This document shows positions 2,598 to 56,735 of a stretch of DNA of 64,000 nucleotides, piece after piece. Both the position numbers and the translations under genes were made by a program. The stretch covers positions 720,001 to 784,000 of the forward strand of contig NC_058062.1 of the NCBI RefSeq assembly GCF_020085105.1, written 5' to 3'. Position 1 is the stretch's first letter, and each line of letters opens with the position of its first letter. Under the pieces are notes generated by a model. That model searched no databases and had not been told where the DNA came from. It saw only the letters and a list, made by a program, of their open reading frames with translations. The DNA comes from Siniperca chuatsi (lineage: Eukaryota > Chordata > Actinopteri > Centrarchiformes > Sinipercidae).

Positions 2598-5500
2598 TCA
2601 GGCGTCAATGCGGAAGGACAGCAGCTTCTCAGAGTGCATGTTGTTGAGCGTTCGCAGGTCGGGCAGCTTCAGCAGCAGTTTGGTGAAGCGCGGCGAGTCC
2701 ACGTTGTGATGGTTGTTGCCGGGGGCGACGGCCAGCTTGCTGACCAGTGAGCGCAGAGCTCTGATCAGGTTCTCCTGCAGCTGCTCCACCGACGCCACGT
2801 TCTCGATACCGGACCGGTCTGAGGAGGAGGAGGAGAAGAAGAAGAACATGAGGAAGAGTGTTCAGAACGTGTCATTGAGCGATATCAGTTCCTGAAAACT
2901 GTCCAATAGAGATGAAGTTCAAAAATCGCAGAATATTAGCGTCTAACATGTAGAGTTCGGTGTCGTCCCTCATTCGTCCAGGAGTGTTCTATCGTAGAAA
3001 AGGTTTCAGTCGTAGTCGTCTGGACGCTGTTTTCAGAATCAAGACGTTTCGGCTCCCATCCGGAAGTCATTCTCAATTGTGAAAATGGTCTGAGAACTCA
3101 GAAATGTAAGCTACTCTGTGTTGCTTAAGCCCCGCCCTCAGGAAGGAGTCTACCTGAGTATCTGTTGATTAGCTAGTTTCACCTGAAACTGACCTAATTG
3201 TTTCCATGATGGCCAGTAATCAGTAATCAGGCCTATTGTTTTCTGGCTGCACCTCCCTCATCACTGTTAAGTACCTGATTAGCATGTGATCGGCTTGACC
3301 ACGGTGTTAACACACTGTGGTAAACTTTGGGCAGGTTGAATCTCAGGCCACCATTTCTGTTCAAAGAGGGGTTTTCTTTTTTCACAAAAATGGCTTCTTT
3401 GACTCCTCTTTCAAACCAACTCTTCTCTCTACTTAGACTCTTCACCTCGCTGTCTTCAAATGTGCGGTTTGTAGCTTTCAGATGCAAATGCACGGCGCTC
3501 TGCAATCCTGAGTTAGCGTGTCGTCTGTGCTGATAAAGTCTTTTGTTATCAGCACAGACAACACGCTAACTCAGGATTACAGAGCGCCGTTGGTTTGAAT
3601 GGGGTGTCAAGGAAGCCAAGAAAACCCCTCTTTGAACAGAAATGGTGGTCTGAGATTCAATCTGCCCAAAGTTTACCACAGTGTATTAACACCGTGGTCA
3701 AGCCGATCACATGCTAATCAGGTACTTAACAGTGATGAGGGAGGTGCAGCCAGAAAACAATAGGCCTGATTACTGATTATTGAGCCATCTTGGAAACAAT
3801 TAGGTCAGTTTCAGGTGAAACTAGCTAATCAACAGATACTCAGGTAGACTCCTTCCTGAGGGCGGGGCTTATGCAACACAGAGTAGCTTAAATTTCTGAG
3901 TTCCCGTCCCATTTTTTCACAATTGAGAACGACTTCCGGATGGGAGCCGAAACGTCTTGATTCTGAAAACAGCGTCCAGACGACTACGACTGAAACCTTT
4001 TCTACGATATAACATGTAGAGTTACTGATTCATTGATCTGGGACTGTTTCAGAAGATTTGGTTGGACACATTTGAGAAACTGAGACTGAAACCAAGTTCT
4101 GTTGATGGTGAATCTGCCACAGTTCTCTCTGTAAATATGTGATAAAGCAGAAATAATGACAGGTTAGCAACAGTAACTAAGGGAGGCGGGGCCTAACGAC
4201 CTGACAACTCGGATGATGAAGGAGCATTTTGACCGACACCCCCGTCATCCCTCCGTCCTCACCTGCAGACACCAGCACCACGGCGGTGAACAGTCCCAGC
4301 TCCTGGGCGTTCAGCTCCAGTGCGGCCAGTTTGAGGCTGAAGTCAAACATGGCTCCCAGCAGCTCGCTCATCCCCATCGCCCTCAGCTCCTCCAGGCTGT
4401 AGGTGGCGCCAGAGATGAAGGTCACCGTCTGTTCCTTCATGTTGAACAGGGATGCAAAGCGCACCATCAGCACCTGAGAGGAGACAGACGATGTTGGAGT
4501 CAGTAAGCTGCAGTTCCTCTAAAGGCCACTAGCTGCAGAAAACATGGAAACATCCAGCTTCTCTCTACGGATATAAAGTCAGCACATTTATTGTCGACAA
4601 AATCAGGTCGCCATTTTGGGAAATCTGCTTATTCTGTTTCTTGTTGAGAGTTTAGCTGGTTAGCTTAGCATAAATATCGGAAACGGGGAAACAGCCTACC
4701 AGCAGCTCTAAAGCTCCCTGACGAACACCTTATATCTTCCACCTGTACACAAACCAAAGCCGCAAGCGACTTCCTGAGGTCTCCGCCGCTTGACGACAAG
4801 ATTTCATTACCTTTGGACAGAACCGGGCTAGCTGTTTCCCCTAGTCTTTATGCTAAGCTAATCTGAACACCTAACTCTCAGCAAGAAAAAGACCTGACTA
4901 AATATTGAACTATTCCTTCAACAGTAAAAGAGAGAACACCCATCACGACTATTTTAGTTTAGCGTCTCTCGCTCTCAGGTTACAGCGCGTCATACTGCTC
5001 CGCGCCCTTGAATTAAGTTTGTTTTACTAACTGACTAAAGGTGTGGCGAGCATTAGCATGACGCTACATCCGGCGTACCTCGAAGGTGCCGGCCTTGAGC
5101 AGGGTGACCTGGTCATTCTGGGACAGAGAACTGAATCCTGGGATGTGTTTGGCGAACTCCACCACCTCCCTGACGGCGGGGGTGAAGGACAGGGAGAAGT
5201 CCTCCCAGATCTCCTGAGGGGTCTTAGAGGGGTCGGCCTGAGGCTGCATGTTCATTGGACAGGCCTGGAGAAGAGAGGAGAGGTCGATCAAACTGTCAAT
5301 CAGTTCACCGTTTGCTAAACCCCTCCCCCCTGAACATCAACCGTCCAATCACAGCTTTTGATTGGTTCTTACCAGCACTATCCCCGTGCGGTTCTTCATT
5401 GGGCAGTTCTGCCCCTGGGTCACATGATCACCGAGCCCGTCTCCTCCAATCAGGTTACTGTTATGCAGGCTCCGCCTCCCGTTGCCATGGTGATTATGCG

Positions 5501-7783
5501 AGACGTTGCGGCTGTTGTCCGGCGGCAGGTAGCGCCCCGTCCCCAGGTTGTTGTTATGGTGATAGATGGTGTTGAGGCCGTTGGCATGGTAACCGTTGGG
5601 GCACCGGTTGGGTCCCCAGTGCTCTGCCTCCCCGTTGTGGTGGGGGGCGTGGTTATTCTGTTGCTGCTGCTGAGGTGGCGCGTGGGGATTGGCCAGCTTG
5701 TCGTGAGCGTACAGGAAGGTCTCACGGTGAGCGCGGGCAATGGCGCTGATGGTGGAGTCCAACCCGGGGCTGGGGAAGGAGGAGGAGAGGGCGCTCTGAC
5801 AGGGTGGGGGAGGCGGAGGAGAGGGTGAGGAGGAGGAGGCTGGGGCAGGAGGGGAGGGGGAGGAAGGGGCGAGTGGCAGGGCTGAAGGCTGGGGCTGGGG
5901 CGCGATGGTGACCCCTGGGCTGGGAGAGGAGGACGAAGAGGAGGAGGAGGAGGAGGAGAGGCTGGCGAGCTGGAAGTCATTCTGCAGCTGGTTGTTGACC
6001 ATGTTGTTCATGGCGCTCTGCATCTCAGCCAGCATCCTCTGCTTCTCACGCTTCGGGATCCGACCGAAACGAACCGCTGTGGAGGAGGAGGAAGAGGAGG
6101 AGGAAGAGGAAGAGGAGGAGGAGGAGGAGGAGGAGGAGGAAGAGGAGGAGGAGGAGGAGATGTCCGTACAGATCAGAGCTGTATGTTAACACTGTTTCTG
6201 TCGCTTCATTCTCCTGCTGTCAGAGTGTCAGACAGGTGCACAGACAGACAGGTGAGGGCTCACCGTCTCAGCTCATGCCCACAGACAGACAGGTGCAGAA
6301 ACAGACAGGTGCACAGACAGACAGGTGAGGGCTCACCGTCTCGGCTCATGCCCACAGACAGACAGGTGCACAGACAGACAGGTGAGGGCTCACCGTCTCG
6401 GCTCATGCCCACAGACAGACAGGTGCACAGACAGACAGGTGAGGGCTCACCGTCTCAGCTCATGCCCACAGACAGACAGGTGCACAGACAGACAGGTGAG
6501 GGCTCACCGTCTCAGCTCATGCCCACAGACAGACAGGTGCACAGACAGACAGGTGAGGGCTCACCGTCTCGGCTCATGCCCACAGACAGACAGGTGCAGA
6601 AACAGACAGGTGAGGGCTCACCGTTGCGGCTCATGCCCACAGACAGACAGGTGCACAGACAGACAGGTGAGGGCTCACCGTCGCGGCTCATGCCCACAGA
6701 CAGACAGGTGCACAGACAGACAGGTGCACAGACAGACAGGTGAGGGCTCACCGTCGCGGCTCATGCCCACAGACAGACAGGTGCACAGACAGACAGGTGC
6801 ACAGACAGACAGGTGAGGGCTCACCGTCGCGGCTCATGCCCACAGACAGGCACTTCTTGAAGCGACACTGCTGGCAGCGGTTCCTGTTGATCCTCATGAT
6901 GGTGCAGCTCTCGCTCTTCAGACACTTCTTGTACTGGATGTTCTGCTGGATGCTGCGCCGGAAGAAGCCCTGCAGGACGACACGCAGACAGACAGACGGC
7001 CGGTCAGTGTTTCGCTTCACGTCAGTATTAATATCATGTGACAGAAACACAATATAAAGTATCTGCGGCGGGACTCCGTTAACCCCTCTGTCAGGTACAA
7101 GTCTGGCGTCTGATACTTCTGAACCATTTTAGTTTGTTTAAGAAAGTTTACTTTAGTTTGATTAATATTTACAGTCTGTAGCTTATAGTGTTTCTCTTCA
7201 TATTTATATTGACATAAATATAATAGTCACTTACAGTTTAATACATGTGAGCATGTGATTTAAAGGAAGCTTAACCACCAAATTATTATGGCAGCTACTG
7301 AGACCTGCTAAGCTAGCTACCTTTATGCTAAGCTAGCTACCTTTAGCAGGAGTTTAGCTGCTTTCTTCTCCATTATGAACTGAATTAGCGGCTGCTTTAT
7401 TTAATTATGTGGAAAACAAACTGAAGAACCAGAACGTCCCTTTTCTCAGATAATATTTATTATATAGTAAAACCGACGTCAGAAAGTCGAAGATACGTTA
7501 AGACTCCATTTAGACCGAATATGTAGGTTTAGTTTTTGCGTTTTGCCTTTTGTAGAACAAACACGTGTTCTGGTCAGTGACGAGGTCATGTGATGTAAGT
7601 GTGTGTGTGTGTGATTATCTCACCTTGCAGCCCTCACAGGCGTGAACGCCGTAATGGAAACCTGAGGCCACGTCACCACAAACCTTACACAGCAGCACCA
7701 TGCCGTTCAGCTCTGACACACACACACACAGACACACACACAGTTAGTATCGAGGTGTCTACAAACACTGAACTAAAAAAAAA

Positions 7784-7830
<47 letters not shown>

Positions 7831-10800
7831 CACACAAGAAACTGGTTACAAATGACCTGAAGTGAACACGAAAAGAGTTTGTGAGTCTTTTAACTTCTGC
7901 GCTTGGATGAAGAATAATAATGTAATAATCCGTAACAATAATCTGTAATAATAATCAATAATAATAATCAGAAATAAGACGGTGTCGTCCCTGTGTAGTT
8001 CCTCGTCCAGCAGTGCTCCATCGTAGAAAAGGTTTCAGTCGTAGTCGTCTGGACGCTGTTTTCAGAATCAAGACGTTTCGGCTCCCATCCGGAAGTCATT
8101 CTCAATTGTGAAAAAATGGGACGGGAACTAGAAATTTAAGCTACTCTGTGTTGCATAAGCCCTGCCCTCAGGGAGGAGTCTACCTGAGTATCTGTTGACT
8201 TTATCAGCACAGACGACACGCTAACTCAGCATTGCAGAGCGCCGTGCATTCGCATCTAAAAGCTACAAACCGCACATTTGAAGACAGCGAGGTGAAGAGT
8301 CTCAGTAGAGAGAAGAGTTGGTTTGAAAGAGGAGTCAAGGAAGCCATTTTTGTGAAAAAAGAAAACCCCTCTTTGAACAGAAATGGTGGTCTGAGATTCA
8401 ATCTGCCAAAGTTTACCACAGTGTATTAACACCGTGGTCAAGCCAATCACATGCTAATCAGGTACTTAACAGTGATGAGGGAGGTGCAGCCAGAAAACAA
8501 TAGGCCTGATTACTGATTACTGGGCCATCATGGAAACAGTTAGGTCAGTTTCAGGTGAAACTAGCTAATCAACAGATACTCAGGTAGACTCCTCCCTGAG
8601 GGCGGGACTTATGTAACACAGAGTAGCTTAAATTTCTGAGTTCTCAGACCATTTTCACAATTGAGAATGACTTCCGGATGGGAGCCGAAACGTCTTGATT
8701 CTGAAAACAGCGTCCAGACGACTGCGACTGAAACCTTTTCTACGATAATCAATAATAATAATCAGTAATAATAATCAGTAATAATAATAATCAGTAATAA
8801 TGGGTTAGCTGTCAGGGTCTTACTGGTGAGACTGGCCACAGACTTGCTGGGCGACGCTCTCAGAGAGCCTCCGTCGTCTCGGCCTCGAGGTGAACCTCCT
8901 GCTGAGGAGGAGCCGTCTTCTCCTGCAGATCCAGAACTGGAGCTGCCGCTGAGGAAGGAGGAGGAGGAGGAGGAGGAGGTGAAGCCGGGCTGAGAGTTGG
9001 AGTTCTCGCTGTACATGGAGACTGGACTGGTACGGGTCGGAGAGCCTCCACGTGAACCCACGTAGGAGATCACACCTCCTGCAGAGAGAGAGGGGGACAG
9101 GAGCAGTGACCCAGCGTGGCGGCCATGTTGGAGGCAGCTGAGGGAACAGGGAAGAAGGAAACTGCTGCTGATGAAGGCACAGTAGTGTCACATACTGGCA
9201 GCTAAGTGGAGCTGATGGTCACCGTTTTAGCTTAGCATGTTAGCATGCTAACATTAGCTAATTAGCAGTAAACACAGAGTGCAGCTGAGGCTGATGGGAG
9301 CGTCAGCAGCTCTGCAGGTGTTTGGTCAGAAACCAAAGTGTCGGACACGTTAACATGTCGACCTGATGGTGGCGCTAGATGGAAAGTCAGAGGATCAGCT
9401 GCTCGTCTTTAAACTGTAGTTCTGTTCTCTCGACCTGCAGCAGCGACTGTTTCCCCCACCTGTCACTGCTGCAGGTGACACACACTGAACACACACTGAA
9501 CACACACTGAACACACACTGAACACACACTGAACACACACACACACACACACTGAACCCACACACACACACACACACTGAACACACACACACTGAACATA
9601 CACACACACTCAGGTTCTGATCGTGTCGACGGTTTTTTATAATTAAGATATTTCATTGAGCAGCTTTGAGAAACAGATTCGTCGCCGTGAAGGTTTAAAA
9701 TTTATATTCTGAACTGCGACCAGCTGCAACCAGCAGCTGCGTACAGCAGCTGCACAGCTGAGGACAGCTGCGAACAGCTGCACAGCTGAGAACAGCTGAG
9801 AACAGCTGAGAACAGCTGCACAGCTGAGAACAGCTGAGAACAGCTGAGAACAGCTGAGAACAGCTGCACAGCTGAGAACAGCTGCGAACAGCTGCGACCA
9901 GCTGCGAACAGCTGCACAGCTGAGGACAGCTGAGAACAGCTGCACAGCTGAGAACAGCTGAGAACAGCTGCACAGCTGCGAACAGCTGCGAACAGCTGCG
10001 ACCAGCTGCGAACAGCTGCACAGCTGAGAACAGCTGAGAACAGCTGCACAGCTGAGAACAGCTGCACAGCTGAGAACAGCTGCGAACAGCTGCGACCAGC
10101 TGCGAACAGCTGCACAGCTGAGAACAGCTGAGAACAGCTGCACAGCTGAGAACAGCTGCACAGCTGAGAACAGCTGAGAACAGCTGCACAGCTGAGAACA
10201 GCTGCGAACAGCTGCGACCAGCTGCGAACAGCTGCACAGCTGAGAACAGCTGAGAACAGCTGCACAGCTGAGAACAGCTGCGAACAGCTGCGACCAGCTG
10301 AGAACAGCTGCACAGCTGAGAACAGCTGCGACCAGCTGAGAACAGCTGCACAGCTGAGAACAGCTGAGAACAGCTGAGAACAGCTGCGACCAGCTGAGAA
10401 CAGCTGCACAGCTGAGAACAGCTGCACAGCTGAGAACAGCTGCACAGCTGAGAACAGCTGCACAGCTGCGACCAGCTGAGAACAGCTGCACAGCTGAGAA
10501 CAGCTGCACAGCTGAGAACAGCTGCACAGCTGAGAACAGCTGCACAGCTGAGAACAGCTGAGAACAGCTGCACAGCTGAGAACAGCTGAGAACAGCTGCA
10601 CAGCTGAGAACAGCTGCACAGCTGAGAACAGCTGCACAGCTGAGAACAGCTGCGAACAGCTGCACAGCTGAGAACAGCTGCGAACAGCTGCACAGCTGCA
10701 CAGTTGAGAACAGCTGCACAGCGTTCGGGACGAAGAGGACGTTCCCACCGCCGGGTTCAGCACGCCGGGTCGGCTGCTCTCACAGGAAGTACCGGCGTCT

Positions 10801-20977: not shown

Positions 20978-23900
20978 CTGTTTGATTCCTGCAGAGCAAC
21001 ACCATTCCGACCAGGACCAGGACCAGGACCAGAGAACCCGCAACTGCTGCAACTATTAGGAAGCGAGAGGAGAGAGGAGGAGGAGGAGGAGCAGGAGGAG
21101 GAGGACCTAGAGGAGAAATCAGTAGAACCTGGTTCATTGCAGTGATCAGTTTATCGGGTCAGCAGGTTAGTTCATATCTTTAAACACAACTGTCAATCAT
21201 ATAAACAGGAAGTGATGTCAGTGTCCTGACCTCTGACCCTCAGCCAGCTCCGAGGAGATTCAACAGTCAGATCAGTATGACACTAGTAGAGACCTTGGTC
21301 TGATGGACTAAGTTAGTCCATCAGACCAGAGTCATAGACAGACATGAACACAGGATGCAACAACTTGCCTTTTGAATCAGTTACAGTGATGGTGATCTGG
21401 TGGCTCCTCTGTCCAGAACTGGTTTCACACCAGTAAACGCCGGTGTCTGATTGGGAGAGATTGGAGACGATGCAGGAGGAACCACCAAAGTCTTCATTGT
21501 GTCCTCCTGCTGTCCTCTTCACCGTCCATCCGTCAGCAGTCTGTCCAGCTTCAACACAACTCAGAGAGACCGACTCTTTGATAAAGAACTGAGGACGGTT
21601 TGGACTGAGCCTCAGAGAGACTGGAGGACAGACAGACAGGTGATCAGACAGACAGGTGATCAGACAGACAGGTGATCAGACAGACCTTATTATTTAGTGT
21701 CAGTGATTGTTTTCACTTCCATCAGCTCACCTGCAGAAACAGTCAGTCCAGACAGCAGCAGCACGGACACACCTGCAACAGGAAGTCAGAGGCCACTGAG
21801 GGTCAGAGGTCACTAAAGTAGCCAATGAAATGAGCTATAAAAAGTTTAATTTATTCCATCAACTGTTTGGAAATGAAGAATAAAAATGTTTGGTGTTTTT
21901 CATCAATGTGAAAGGTAAAAGGTCGATCTTTACATTTCTTTTGAAACTCCATTTTAATTATTTAACTGTTATTAATTGATGTATTATAGTTATATTTTCA
22001 ACTCGTCTGATGAACTTTTACTGCCTTTTGTCTGTTTCCATACATATTTGGATATAAGACATATCAAATATATCAAGCTACTTCAGAATCAGCTTTATTG
22101 CCAAGTAGGTTTTCACATACAAGGAGTTTGTCTTGGTATTTGGTGCATAACAATAAACATAGTAAGAGAAAATAGAAAACTAAAAAGCAAATACTGCAAA
22201 AGTCAATAACCCTAAATATAAAACAGAAACATTTACAATCCGAAATCTGAGAAAAAATATGAACAGTGTTTGTTTTTAAACTAAAGAGCTGTACAGCAGG
22301 AATGTGGAAAATATTGACCAGGGAATGTTCACAGTATGAAGAATATAAAATATGTGCAGAGGTGATAATCCAAGAGATGTGCATTAAGCAGAAGGACTCC
22401 ACAGTGCGGACTCTTTCCCACCCAATGAGGGTGGTGTCGTCCATAAAACTAGAGGAGCTTGAAAGACTGATGACTGGAGGTGCAGCTGTTGGTGTACAGG
22501 GAGAAGAGCAGAGGGGAAAGGAGGCAGCCTTGAGGGGAACCGGTGCTGATGGTCCGGGAGTCTGAGACATGTTTCCCCAGCTTCACGTGCGGCCTCCTGT
22601 CGGACAGGAAGTCTGTGATCCACCTGCAGGTGAGAGCTTGTCCTGTAGCAGATCCGGGATGATGGTGTTGAAGGCGGAGCTAAAGTCCACAAACAGGATC
22701 CTGGTTCCTGAGGAGTCTACGTGCTAGAGGATGAAGTGGAGGGCTATGTTTACTGCATGGTCTACAGACCTGTTGGCTCTGTAGGTAAACTGCAGGGGGT
22801 CCAGGAGAGGGTCTGTGATGGCTTTGAGGTGGGACAGCACAAGGCGCTCAAAAGATTATTATTATCCGGCTGCCCGAATACGTCCCTTAAGACTCTCCAG
22901 TTGATCCTGAATGCTGCGGCACGTGTACTGACAAGAACTAGGAAAAGAGATCATATCTCTCCAATATTAGCTTCTCTGCACTGGCTCCCTGTAAAATCCA
23001 GAATAGAGTTTAAAATCCTTCTCCACACCTACAAAGCTCTTAATGGTCAGGCACCATCATATCTTAAAGAGCTCATAATACCTTATTACCCGACTAGAAC
23101 ACTGCGCTCCCAGGATGCAGGGTTACTTGTGGTTCCTAGAGTCTCCAAAAGTAGACCGGGAGCCAGAGCCTTCAGGTATCAAGCTCCTCTCCTGTGGAAT
23201 CAGATCCCAGTTTGGGTTCGGGAGGCAGACACCATGTCCACATTTATGAGCAGGCAAGACTTTCCTCTTTGATAAAGCTTATAGTTAGGGCTGGCTTGGG
23301 TGAGTCCTGAACCATCCCTTAGTTATGCTGCTATAGGCCTAGACTTCTGGGAGACTTCCCATGATGCACCTCTTTCCTCTCTCCTCCTCTCCCTCTCCAT
23401 CTGGATGCATTTTTATCCCATTACTGCATGTTACTAACTCGACATCTTCTCTCTCCCATAGTTCTGTGCTTTCTCGTCTCTCTCCTCTCTCCTTCTGTCG
23501 CTTTCAGCAGGTATTTCTGCCTCCGGAGCTGCAGAGTCTGGATCTGTGGTTGTGGGCCACCTGCTGCCCCCATGTTGCTGCTTGACAACTGTTCCAGAAC
23601 AACTAGATCACATGACTTTAAAATGTTTTCACACCAGATGAAGAGCACCAGCGATCAAAATATGAAATCAAATCCTGTGCAAATTCCACGTGTTTGTTTA
23701 CCTTTTGCCAGCCCCTGAAATGTTGGCAATATGCTTCAGGAACTAACTCATATGCCTTCAAGAAAGCAGATTTTACCGTATTGTAATCTTTATCTAATCT
23801 TTATGTAATCTCAGAAGATGTGCTTGTGCTTTACCTGTAAAGACACACTGTAACGTTAAAGTTCACTCCTCATCAGGCCGGCCTCTTGCATCAGCAAAAC

Positions 23901-26747: not shown

Positions 26748-27665
26748 ATCAGAATCAGAAATACTTTATTGATCCCTGAGGGGAAACTCTTTGTTACAGC
26801 TGGTCACTGTCACGTCAGTCACACAGGAAGAGAAGCACTAAGCAAAAAATATAATACAGGTCAGATAAATTAAGTACCAAGTGGGTATAAGTATAAAATT
26901 AAAATAAGGGTGAAGTACAAAGTGGATTTACCGGTTGATGATAATAATACGGTATAAGGTAACAGTGCTGGGGGGGGGGCACAATGCAAAGACCACGTAG
27001 AATTTTTTTTTTATAGTAGAATAGTAATTATAGCGTTAATATTAATAAATTACTAATAATAGGAATGACAGCTATAGGACTAATAATGTCAGTATCAGTA
27101 ACAGAGCCAATAACAACAACTGTAGCAGCAGTTGTCGAGCAGGAACACGGGGGCAGCAGGTGGCCCACAACCACAGATCCAGACTCTGCAGGAACACGGG
27201 GGCAGCAGGTGGCCCACAACCACAGATCCAGACTCTGCAGGAACACGGGGGCAGCAGGTGGCCCACAACCACAGATCCAGACTCTGCAGCTCCGGAGGCA
27301 GAAATACCTGCTGAAAGCGACAGAAGGAGAGAGGAGAGAGACAAGAAAGCATAGTATAATGAGACGGAGGAAATTGCACAGCAGTAATAGAAGTATGAAT
27401 AAATATCAATATCAATAAATAGGGAATTTTAAACTGAAAACAGAGAATATTGCACAATTATTATTAAGTATTGCAGAGATGTTAATGATCAATGTCCAGT
27501 TTAGTGACTTCGGGTCATACAGACTGACACTTAGAGGGAGGAGTTAAAGAGTCTGATGGCCACAGGCGGGAATGACTTCCTGTGGCGCTCTGTGGTGCAT
27601 TGTGGGGGGATGAGTCTTCCGCTGAAGGTGCTCCTTTGTTTGACCAGAAAGACAAAGCAACAAAC
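26748..27665 (-). mobile_element. Rex-like LINE 3' end split by an L2 fragment
   Basis: 26750-27000 ('actttattgatccctgaggg' onward) and 27425-27665 (up to 'gctcctttgtttgaccag') match, in order, the continuous copy at 42960-43500. The 27010-27420 interval is instead L2 3' UTR with the 49-bp VNTR. This indicates nested insertion. Confidence 0.65.
27143..27290. repeat. 49-bp VNTR, 3 units
   Basis: Three units of 'caggaacacgggggcagcag' plus 'gtggcccacaaccacagatc' plus 'cagactctg'. It lies in the 3' UTR part of an L2 LINE inserted in minus orientation; 1 unit at 23.5 kb, 7 units at 29.5 kb. Confidence 0.9.
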
Positions 27666-29399: not shown

Positions 29400-30150
29400 A
29401 TATCGCGCCAAGGGGGTGGGGGGTTGAAAATAATGTAATGTTAGTGGTAATATCAATATAATATTAATTATATATATATATATAAAATCAGTAATAACAA
29501 CAACTGTAGTAGCAGTTGTTGAGCAGAAACACGGGGGCAGCAGGTGGCCCACAACCACAGATCCAGACTCTGCAGGAACACGGGGGGCAGCAGGTGGCCC
29601 ACAACCACAGATCCAGACTCTGCAGGAACACGGGGGCAGCAGGTGGCTCACAACCACAGATCCAGACTCTGCAGGAACACGGGGGGCAGCAGGTGGCCCA
29701 CAACCACAGATCCAGACTCTGCAGGAACATGGGGGGCAGCAGGTGGCCCACAACCACAGATCCAGACTCTGCAGGAACACGGGGGCAGCAGGTGGCCCAC
29801 AACCACAGATCCAGACTCTGCAGGAACACGGGGGCAGCAGGTGGCCCACAACCACAGATCCAGACTCTGCAGCTCCGGAGGCAGAAATACCTGCTGAAAG
29901 CGACAGAAGGAGAGAGGAGAGAGATGAGAAAGCACAGAACTACGGGAGAGAGAAGATGTCGAGTTAGTAACATGCAGTAATGGGATAAACATGCATCCAG
30001 ATGGAGAGGGAGAGAAGGAGAGAGGAGAGAGGTGCATCATGGGAAGTCTCCCGGCAGTCTAGGCCTATAGCAGCATAACTAAGGGATGGTTCAGGACTCA
30101 CCCAAGCCAGCCCTAACTATAAGCTTTATCAAAGAGGAAAGTCTTAAGCC
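29400..30150 (-). mobile_element. L2-type LINE 3' end carrying a seven-unit VNTR
   Basis: Inverse of the 23260-23590 copy: 'agctttatcaaagaggaaag' near 30122 matches the inverse of the region after the L2 ORF stop at 23271. The VNTR occupies 29525-29870. ORF2 sequence itself is absent, so this copy is strongly 5'-truncated. Confidence 0.75.
29525..29870. repeat. 49-bp VNTR, 7 units
   Basis: Seven units of the same sequence as at 27143-27290, with G-run length variants (ggggg/gggggg) and one C-to-T change per few units. Confidence 0.92.
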
Positions 30151-48000: not shown

Positions 48001-51000
48001 CCCCTCAGCCCTCGCAGAGCCCCGCCACCGCCCGAACCCCCCAGAACTACGGAGTCCCCTCTCCTGGACCGCTCAATACTCCAGGTGCACACACAGTCAA
48101 AAACCTTCATCCACAAAAAAGATAACAAATAAATAAAAAGATTTAGCTTTGTCCTCGTCCAGGCTTCACCTGTAGACGACGGAGCGCCGTTCAGGCTTTG
48201 TTGGAAGAGATTATTTCTCCAGAGTGTTTGCATACAGATTTCAGGGTTGTTTTGCTGTAAAACCAGAAAATAACATTTGTAGTTGTATTAATAATAAGAG
48301 TTGTCATTAAGAAAACACAGACCAGGATCAGGATTATAGAGCAGCTAACACTCAGACAATCCCAGAACACATGAAGAAATGTTTCTGCAGAATTAGAGTA
48401 AATAAATGAAAAGTGTATCTGGAGTCTATAAATATTATGAAATGAATGTGTTGGTGTTTTTAAATGTTGTTTTATAAGATTCAGCCATCTGTGATCAGGT
48501 TCTTCATGGAAATCCTGTAACTTCCTGTTCCGTAATATTATAATGAGCGATGTTTTATTCTGTCTGCCGCATTAAGAAAAGTCCAAAAATAGAGAAACAA
48601 CTTCCACAATCAAAACTTCAGACCTTCAACAAAAGTCATCACTGACAAGATGATTTACTATGTGATACAGGATCAATACTAGTTCAGTCATGCAGTCGTC
48701 TTTTCCAGGCTTTTGAGACAAAGTTAGCAAACTGAAACGCGTCAAAAGGAAACAGCCATTAAATGTTGCGATCATCTGAACTCCAGAACATTTCAGGCTT
48801 TTTCTCACTTCACGGACAGAAAACTAGCTGTGAAATCATCAGAGTCTGTACAGTACGAAAGAAAATGAGACTCACTTTCCCTCCTGTCCTCACCTGTCCT
48901 CACCTGTCCTCACCTGTCCCCTCCTGTCCTCACCTGTCCTCCCCTTTACCCTCCTGTCCCCTCCTGTCCTCACCTGTCCCCTCCTGTCCCTCCCTGTCCC
49001 CTCCTGTCCTCACCTGTCCTCACCTGTCCTCACCTGTCCCCTCCTGTCCTCACCTGTCCTCACCTTTACCCTCCTGTCCCCTCCTGTCCTCACCTGTCCC
49101 CTCCTGTCCTCACCTTTACCCTCCTGTCCCCTCCTGTCCTCACCTGCCCTCCCCTTTACCCTCCTGTCCCCTCCTGCCCTCACCTGCCCTCCCCTTTACC
49201 CTCCTGTCCCCTCCTGCCCTCCCCTTTACCCTCCCTGCCCTCCCCTTTACCCTCCTGTCCCCTCCTGTCCTCACCTGCCCTCCCCTTTACCCTCCTGTCC
49301 CCTCCTGTCCTCACCTGTCCCCTCCTGCCCTCACCTGTCCCCTCCTGCCCTCACCTGTCCTCCCTGTCCCCTCCTGTCCTCACCTGTCCCCTCCTGCCCT
49401 CACCTGCCCTCACCTGTCCCCTCCTGTCCCCCCGTCCTCACCTGTCCCTTCCTGCCCTCACCTGTCCCCCTTCTCTCCTCCTGTCCTCACCTGTCCCCTC
49501 CTGCCCTCACCTGTCCCCTCCTGCCCTCACCTGTCCCCACCTGTCCCCTCCTGTCCTCACCTGCCCTCCCCTTTACCCCTCCTGTCCCCTCCTGCCCTCA
49601 CCTGTCCCCTCCTGCCCTCACCTGTCCCTCCTGCCCTCACCTGCCCTCACCTGTCCCCTCCTGTCCTCACCTGTCCCCTCCTGTCCCCCCATCCTCACCT
49701 GTCCCTTCCTGCCCTCACCTGTCCCCCTTCTCTCCTCCTGTCCTCACCTGTCCCCTCCTGCCCTCACCTGTCCCCACCTGTCCCCTCCTGCCCTCACCTG
49801 CCCTCACCTGTCCTCTCCTGTCCTCACCTGTCCCCTCCTGTCCCCCCCCCTCACCTGTCCCTTCCTGCCCTCACCTGTCCCCCTCTCTCCTCCTGTCCTC
49901 ACCTGTCCCCTCCTGTCCTCACCTGCCCTCCCCTTTACCCTCCTGTCCCCTCCTGCCCTCACCTGTCCCCTCCTGCCCTCACCTGTCCCCTCCTGCCCTC
50001 ACCTGTCCCCTCCTGTCCCCCTCCTGTCCCCCCGTCCTGCAGGTAACCCCAGCTCAGTGATGAGTCCGGCTGGAGCCACGTCTCTGGAGGATCAGCAGTA
50101 CATGGAGAAACTCAAACAGCTCTCCAAATACATCGAACCTCTGCGCAGGATGATCAACAAGATCGACAAAAATGAAGGTCAGAGCTGCGGCCAAACGTTT
50201 CTGTACACGTCACAGGAAACCGAATCTCTGTGGGTTTTGGACGGACGGTGGATTTGAAGACGTAAACTTGGGCTCAAATTTCAGACGAAACAGTGAACCG
50301 ATAATGAAAGTTTGTTGCGGCCCCTCTCAGATCCACAAGATTAGACGCGTCTCTTTTGCGTCAGCATTGGTTTTTCGGGTTTGGTTCATTTTCCTTTTTG
50401 TTTTGCTTCTGTTCACAGACAGAAAGAAGGACCTGAGTAAGATGAAGAGTCTGCTGAATATCCTGACGGACCCAAACACCAGGTAACAGCTGACCGCTCA
50501 AGTCCAGCTCCGCATCAACACAGCCACTCACTTATTAAACTCCCGTGTGTCCTCTGACCTGCAGGTGTCCTCTGAAGACGCTGCAGAAGTGCGAAATCGC
50601 TTTAGAGAAACTGAAGAACGACATGGCCGTGGTGAGGAGGTCTTCTGTCACCGCGGGACGTCTCGCCGTCTCAGTTTTTATGTTGTTTTTAAAACAGAGC
50701 TGTCACTTTTTCACAACACGTAGCTCATTAGTCTGAGAACCTCCTGAAACGGCCACCAGGCTTCGTGTCCTTCCTGTAAATCTTCCGTCTGCTCGGCCTT
50801 TTTACGAGCCGCTGGCTCCTGAGGGTGACGGAGGGGAAAGGGTGCAGTCGGACGAGCTTGTACGGTTTTTAGTTTACATTTTTAAGAGCGCCCTCTGCTG
50901 GAGCGCAAGGCAAACTGACAGTCTGTTGTGTTTATGGACAGTTTATAGTAGTAGTGAATTCATTTGCTCCTGCAGTAACAGCTTTTCCTGTTGTTTCAGC

Positions 51001-55200: not shown

Positions 55201-55515
55201 GCTGTGTGTGTGTGTGTTCAGTGTGTGTGTTCAGTGTGTGTGTGTGTTCAGTGTGTGTGTTCAGTGTGTGTGTGTGTGTGTGTGTGTGTTACTGTGTGTG
55301 TGTTCTCTGTGTGTGTGTGTTCAGTGTGTGTGTTCTGTGTGTGTGTTACTGTGTGTGTGTTTCAGTGTGTGTGTGTTACTGTGTGTGTGTGTTCAGTGTG
55401 TGTGTGAGTGTGTGTTACTGTGTGTGTGTGTGTGTTCAGTGTGTGTGTGTTCTGTGTGTGTGTTACTGTGTGTGTGTTCAGTGTGTGTGTTACTGTGTGT
55501 GTGTGTGTGTGCGTT

Positions 55516-55551
<36 letters not shown>

Positions 55552-55849
55552 TCAGTGTGTGTGTGTGTGTTCTCTGTGTGTGTGTGTGTGTGTGTTCAGT
55601 GTGTGTGTTACTGTGTGTGTGTTCTCTGTGTGTGTGTGTTCAGTGTGTGTGTTCTGTGTGTGTGTTACTGTGTGTGTGTTCAGTGTGTGTGTTCTGTGTG
55701 TGTGTTACTGTGTGTGTGTGTTCAGTGTGTGTGTGTTACTGTGTGTGTGTGTTCAGTGTGTGTGTGAGTGTGTGTTACTGTGTGTGTGTGTGTGTTCAGT
55801 GTGTGTGTGTTCTGTGTGTGTGTTACTGTGTGTGTGTTCAGTGTGTGTG

Positions 55850-55916
<67 letters not shown>

Positions 55917-56232
55917 TCAGTGTGTGTGTGTGTGTGTTCTCTGTGTGTGTGTGTGTGTGTGTTCAGTGTGTGTGTTCTCTCTGTGTGTGTGTTACTGTGT
56001 GTGTGTGTGTTCAGTGTGTGTGTGTGTTCTGTGTGTGTGTGTTACTGTGTGTGTGTGTGTGTGTATGTTCAGTGTGTGTGTGCGTGTGTGTGTGCGTGTG
56101 TGTGTGCGTGTGTGTTCAGTGTGTGCGTGTGTGTGTGTGTGTTCAGTGTGTGTGTATGTTCAGTGCGTGTGTGTGTGCGTGTGTGTTCAGTGTGTGCGTG
56201 TGTGTGTGTGTTCAGTGTGTGTGTATGTTCAG

Positions 56233-56263
<31 letters not shown>

Positions 56264-56303
56264 ATGTTCAGTGTGTGCGTGTGTGTGTGTGTGTGTGTAT
56301 GTT

Positions 56304-56339
<36 letters not shown>

Positions 56340-56343
56340 TCAG

Positions 56344-56376
<33 letters not shown>

Positions 56377-56381
56377 ATGTT

Positions 56382-56421
<40 letters not shown>

Positions 56422-56506
56422 TCAGTGCGTGTGTGTGCGTGTGTGTGTGCGTGTGTGTTCAGTGTGTGTGCGTGTGTGTGTGTGTTCAGTGTGTGTGTAT
56501 GTTCAG

Positions 56507-56537
<31 letters not shown>

Positions 56538-56543
56538 ATGTGT

Positions 56544-56576
<33 letters not shown>

Positions 56577-56622
56577 TCAGTGTGTGTGTGCGTGTGTGTG
56601 TGTGTGTGTGTGCGTGTGTGTT

Positions 56623-56660
<38 letters not shown>

Positions 56661-56664
56661 TCAG

Positions 56665-56699
<35 letters not shown>

Positions 56700-56700
56700 T

Positions 56701-56733
<33 letters not shown>
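55201..56733. repeat. 1.5-kb (TG)n array punctuated by TTCAG, TTACTG and TTCTC
   Basis: The plus strand is TGTGTG interrupted by TTCAGTG, TTACTG, TTCTCTG, GCGTG and TATGTTCAG. Higher-order order is visible: for example, the block around 55321-55500 repeats nearly identically at about 55681-55860. The open C/V-rich frames are composition artefacts. On the minus strand it starts at the base after the thoc6 stop. Confidence 0.95.

Positions 56734-56735
<2 letters not shown>

Follow-up and report, generated by a model that had tools for sequence, protein, structure and literature searches.

We analysed a 64,000-nt stretch of the Siniperca chuatsi genome (the window, C21:720001-784000, from an assembly of 719 Mb in 65 contigs, 24 of them 19-38 Mb long) that carries nr1d1, a core clock repressor gene encoding Rev-erb alpha, and detected a tandem array across the boundary between its exon 4 and intron 4. 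The gene lies on the minus strand, which is the sense strand for all nr1d1 and array coordinates given here. Exons 2-8 together encode 602 aa without interruption (exon 1 was not located), with the Pfam domains zf-C4 and Hormone_recep, i.e., the zinc-finger and ligand-binding domains; 92 residues of the DNA-binding domain align with the solved NR1D1 chain 1a6y (E 3e-56). Intron 4 is 748 nt long, and the features around it are as follows:

6970..7623, minus strand: intron 3 of nr1d1, 654 nt, preceding exon 4
6825..6969, minus strand: nr1d1 exon 4, 145 nt, second zinc finger, ending in GMSRD plus 1 nt
6819..6827, minus strand: authentic exon 4 donor ACG/GTGAGC, last exon base 6825, GT at 6824-6823
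6229..6849, minus strand: tandem array including the exon end and nine decoy junctions (Tandem Repeats Finder rows taken together, and unit list)
6750..6752, minus strand: decoy donor 1 (+73), exon-end base 6752 plus GT, frame-shifting
6748..6750, minus strand: in-frame TGA met on read-through, retained by decoys 2-9
6677..6679, minus strand: decoy donor 2 (+146)
6620..6622, minus strand: decoy donor 3 (+203), codes GMSRN
6563..6565, minus strand: decoy donor 4 (+260)
6506..6508, minus strand: decoy donor 5 (+317), GMS-stop
6449..6451, minus strand: decoy donor 6 (+374), GMS-stop
6392..6394, minus strand: decoy donor 7 (+431)
6335..6337, minus strand: decoy donor 8 (+488)
6262..6264, minus strand: decoy donor 9 (+561), GMS-stop; if used, 187 nt of intron would be left
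6077..6263, minus strand: remainder of intron 4 past the last decoy, 187 nt; CACCTGTCTGTCTGTG occurs once more close to its beginning, and a pyrimidine tract at 6081-6159 precedes the acceptor
5373..6076, minus strand: nr1d1 exon 5, opening with the C-terminal extension of the DNA-binding domain

Anatomy of the array

The array spans the exon–intron boundary and copies it, taking up to the last 25 nt of the exon together with the start of the intron. A preliminary description had reported nine tandem copies of the exon 4 end plus GTGAGC beyond the real donor (6824/6825), giving ten near-identical 5' splice sites at the C-terminal edge of the DNA-binding domain, and all of this held: the unit list and Tandem Repeats Finder both recover the copies, the donor 9-mer ACG/GTGAGC is the same at all ten sites, and exon 4 ends in GMSRD where exon 5 takes up the C-terminal extension. 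Junction spacings along the array are 73, 73, six of 57, and then 73 bp, with the first two units being identical 73-mers. The statement that most copies code GMSRD is true by a bare majority (5/9 decoys, the others being one GMSRN and three GMS-stop). Scored with an approximate splice matrix, which makes all donor scores resting on it approximate too, the array donors reach 4.53, compared with -2.59 for the next best GT in the exon 4–intron 4 stretch and 1.72-7.17 for the five other nr1d1 donors. By the same matrix, the plus strand of 6229-6849 carries ten CAG/GTGAGG sites that score 7.17 versus 4.53 for the sense donors.

A search of the whole genome with a 23-mer cassette (IUPAC codes, up to 3 mismatches) returned 15 matches, of which 10 were exact and all in the nr1d1 array and 5 had 2-3 mismatches and lay elsewhere; the reversed control returned 0. 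This genome-wide search of one assembly found no second copy of the array locus, and a dispersed element carrying the cassette was rejected as a source since no exact match lies outside the array.

Origin and genomic setting

All nine decoys carry a T at -26 (counting back from the last exon base as -1) where exon 4 has a C, and from -25 on they match the exon, save for later substitutions, so that each reads as intronic ACCTGTCTGTCTGTG passing into exonic GGGCATGAGC. Because they share this one exon/intron crossover, a single founding duplication with its crossover at the shared CTGTCTGTG is the simplest account of the array's origin. The last 40 nt of the exon and the remaining part of the intron share a 9-nt match, a length reached by 11 of 2000 mononucleotide shuffles, and the crossover match falls within a CTCACCTGTCTGTC-type stretch. 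A duplication across the exon 4/intron 4 junction would have placed the intronic CTGTCTGTCTGTG stretch next to CTGTCTGTG of the exon itself, and the new 57/73-bp unit may then have spread downstream, amplified by slippage or by unequal exchange; the region, close to a chromosome end, is rich in arrays with the same motif. The earlier proposal that the expansion started from the functional splice site was right in part: the duplicated block does cross the junction and shows one founding crossover, but what the array has in common with arrays elsewhere in the genome is the intronic CTCACCTGTCTGTC-type motif rather than the exon end. Mean pairwise divergence among the decoys is 2.8%, with 5 of 60 columns variable. 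None of these 5 columns falls in the donor 9-mer, which gives no signal of selection on the donors (P 0.43).

The array lies 0.73 Mb from the end of C21, and minisatellites at other places in the genome contain the motif CTCACCTGTCTGTC/GACAGACAGGTGAG too. Merging 81 matches by hand gave the array-like places, of which all 27 tested are no more than 1.95 Mb from a contig end (C5:284736, at 0.28 Mb, is not among the 27); six places of exon homology lie 4.07-13.5 Mb from one. An exact search with the 16-mer CAGACAGACAGGTGAG gave 191 matches versus 2 for the reversed control; among the 100 matches listed, typed by hand and merged within 10 kb into 37 clusters, 28 clusters were within 2 Mb of a contig end and 9 were not, where the share of the genome within 2 Mb of ends sets an expectation of 13.4%. 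A general class of donor-seeded minisatellites was not supported, as a GTGTG variant of the motif also amplifies and an array in a MED15 intron of the window has the motif opposite the gene strand. Many arrays contain GGTRAG sites, but the query of the array search itself included that motif. Chromosome-end minisatellites at other loci (L018, L019, L023-L026, and L030-L036) have at least 12 such donor-like sites on one strand, with up to 167 in L034. The nr1d1 array also points to a way in which an intronic motif that is prone to expand, if it lies close to a chromosome end, may take in a splice junction.

We compared nr1d1 with its four closest paralogues, on C9, C17, C10, and C2, which were called nr1d paralogues on 81-96% identity over 48 aa (next matches up to 62%). 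Each has a donor at the same place as that of nr1d1 exon 4, without repeats: within 800 nt we found 0 donor-like sites in three of them and a single one, at +624, in the fourth.

Decoy use and the choice of donor

Use of a decoy would lengthen exon 4 from 145 nt to 218-706 nt. Read-through past the true donor was said to meet an in-frame TGA at the first decoy, which we found at 6750-6748, and the frame check agreed that decoys 2-9 keep this stop, where translation would end, and that decoy 1 (+73) avoids it but shifts the frame, stopping 9 whole codons into exon 5. A premature stop is thus predicted for 9/9 decoys, more than 50 nt upstream of 3 (decoy 1) or 4 (the others) exon junctions. Stops in such positions are expected by the usual rule to trigger nonsense-mediated decay (NMD), and since every decoy gives a stop with 3-4 junctions downstream, NMD is a likelier outcome for decoy-spliced transcripts than a stable truncated receptor. 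The claim that decoy use truncates Rev-erb after the zinc fingers is therefore sound for the reading frame, and a stable truncated product is not the default prediction. If translated, such a product would keep the zinc fingers and lose the ligand-binding domain as well as the C-terminal extension after GMSRD, which contacts DNA.

Local sequence cannot pick the donor, because the true donor and decoy 1 do not differ in the 25 nt that precede them or in the 73-nt unit that follows, but position can. Both flanking introns exceed 600 nt (654 and 748 nt), so exon definition and use of the first donor are to be expected: the ten donors would be equivalent to U1 over 9 nt, exon 4 would be recognised across the exon, and the authentic donor, being the closest to the upstream acceptor, would be used nearly always. 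These expectations derive from human data, and applying them to a fish is an inference. According to PMC9225289, when minigenes with two identical donors and 365-nt introns were transfected, the upstream donor alone was used, and among human transcripts whose donors are of near-equal strength the upstream 5' splice site is preferred where introns are long and the downstream one where they are short. On balance, the first donor should dominate, with some leakage possible. We suggest that the array is a tolerated exon-boundary ("mirage") minisatellite whose first donor is mostly used and whose decoys are mostly ignored (probability about 0.77); rare decoy use would produce premature-stop transcripts that NMD removes, and the expansion would be close to neutral.

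Several observations weigh against this interpretation. Predicted local secondary structure was rejected as a discriminator, as it gives the true donor no advantage. In PMC9225289, the upstream 5' splice site wins in only 60% of near-equal events overall, and without a strength filter the downstream site is the commoner in 4/4 human architecture classes. Decoy 9 is 187 nt from the acceptor, a length where intron definition could favour it. Known repeat donors can also be used: in human F7 intron 7 the downstream cryptic donors come into play once the first donor is weakened (PMC6627357), and in IFI6 two downstream repeat units serve as donors (PMC4526556). Finally, the motif is not donor-specific, as its GTGTG variant gave 92 matches versus 6 in the control, 68 of them in a single C9 array; since this variant forms arrays too, likeness to a donor is unnecessary for expansion.

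Folding results were mixed and were not used. The mean unpaired probability of the ten donors was 0.14-0.35 under three window settings and 0.44-0.54 across the full stretch. For the 24-nt donor hairpin GGUGAGCCCUCACC, z was -2.44 (5 of 200 shuffles as good), for a 51-nt stretch -0.05 (89/200), and for a 97-nt stretch -2.11 (4/200), and the whole 615-nt array folded at z +1.57, with 20/20 shuffles at least as stable.

The preliminary description had left the choice between copy-number-dependent control and a tolerated expansion, of which the latter fits best. Under copy-number control, some transcripts would use a decoy and be removed by NMD, so that unit number sets Rev-erb alpha dosage. This is compatible with ten identical donors, with a premature stop from every decoy, placed more than 50 nt upstream of 3-4 junctions, and with the usable repeat donors of IFI6 (PMC4526556), yet neither donors nor paralogues lend it positive support: the four paralogues have no repeated donor within 800 nt, the donor core is conserved no more than chance predicts, and the cross-exon preference points to the first donor. 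We consider it unlikely. A related idea, quite improbable in our judgement, is a self-buffering, copy-number-tunable splice switch in which unit number would set the leak into decoy-spliced, NMD-degraded transcripts. It builds on the 187-nt length of an array-free intron 4, which would favour the downstream of two equal donors (human data, PMC9225289), while each added unit would make the intron longer and bring it closer to exon definition, under which the first donor is chosen. If true, it would imply heritable individual differences in Rev-erb alpha dosage and clock behaviour.

The decoys might instead be unused extra landing sites for U1 that act as an intronic enhancer of exon 4 recognition. 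Inclusion of a defective exon is promoted when modified U1 particles are aimed at sites 2, 17, or 21 nt beyond its donor (PMC4289686), and nine U1-like sites follow the exon 4 donor, but the nearest is 73 nt off, beyond the distances in those tests; with an authentic donor that is not especially weak (4.53 against 1.72-7.17) and no sign of conservation of the donors (P 0.43), this role seems very improbable. It is harder still to believe that decoy use is frequent and that nr1d1 is a weakened allele tolerated thanks to the remaining nr1d paralogues. Such paralogues do exist, and the true donor and decoy 1 are indistinguishable by local sequence, but the reading frame is open across exons 2-8 and the DNA-binding region is close to solved NR1D1 and therefore still under constraint. 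Tandem arrays are often mis-sized in assemblies and the first two units here are identical, but the orderly point and length differences among units, and the 24 contigs of 19-38 Mb among 65 that suggest a long-read assembly, make an assembly error in the array or its unit number scarcely credible.

Other repeats in the window and known systems compared

The window holds several other repeats. Introns 7 (2990-4030) and 2 (7980-8760) of nr1d1 contain related elements with long inverted ends, by eye of fold-back type, and upstream of exon 2 there is a CAGCTGCGAA-type simple array of about 1 kb (9734-10717). A plus-strand MED15 intron carries a pyrimidine-rich minisatellite of 1.15 kb (48879-50031; a 20-mer in 58 copies) that reads CAG/GTGAGG repeats on the opposite strand. 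As it ends about 12 nt before an apparent exon acceptor (about 50043, by eye; Med15 domains occur in nearby frames), it would form a giant polypyrimidine tract. A 49-bp tandem unit occurs at 27139-27289, 29523-29872, and about 23343-23582, and also at L027 3553-3752, apparently inside copies of one repeated element, and a TG-rich simple tract of 1.5 kb lies at 55203-56734.

A minisatellite with multiple splice donor sites in human IFI6 (6-16) was reportedly described by Turri in 1995. Like it, the nr1d1 minisatellite supplies several donors at an exon end. The downstream IFI6 donors are used and yield three mRNA species encoding isoforms (PMC4526556), whereas the nr1d1 decoys are predicted to give premature stops in 9/9 cases. 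Regulated NMD (poison) splicing resembles the array in that a stop upstream of junctions is predicted for 9/9 decoys, but the conservation that goes with it is lacking, with no repeated donor within 800 nt in the four paralogues and P 0.43 in the donor core.

Among the top matches listed from searches of openly licensed papers, none described an array in nr1d1, a weak indication that this one has not been reported before. As in the 37-bp repeats of human F7 IVS7, where normally only the first repeat donor is used (PMC6627357), the authentic donor (6825/6824) heads the array within the first repeat, and the most upstream donor is the predicted winner; unlike F7, nr1d1 is another gene with a 57/73-bp unit and nine decoys, and its array is described here from sequence. 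Ten donors that are identical across the U1 window make nr1d1 a natural experiment in 5' splice site choice. A parallel in form is with the amphioxus mirages of Adh3, BflGb6, and BflGb9, minisatellite-like tandem copies of exon/intron boundaries that are said, from reverse-transcription PCR (RT-PCR), not to interfere with regular splicing (PMC3087553). In both, copies within an array resemble each other and many carry splice signals (9/9 decoys in nr1d1), whereas mirage units measure 10-160 bp, occur at either exon boundary, and come with haplotype length variation and RT-PCR data, the nr1d1 array having 57/73-bp units and being known from one assembly. The nr1d1 array is real and striking, but its kind has already been described.
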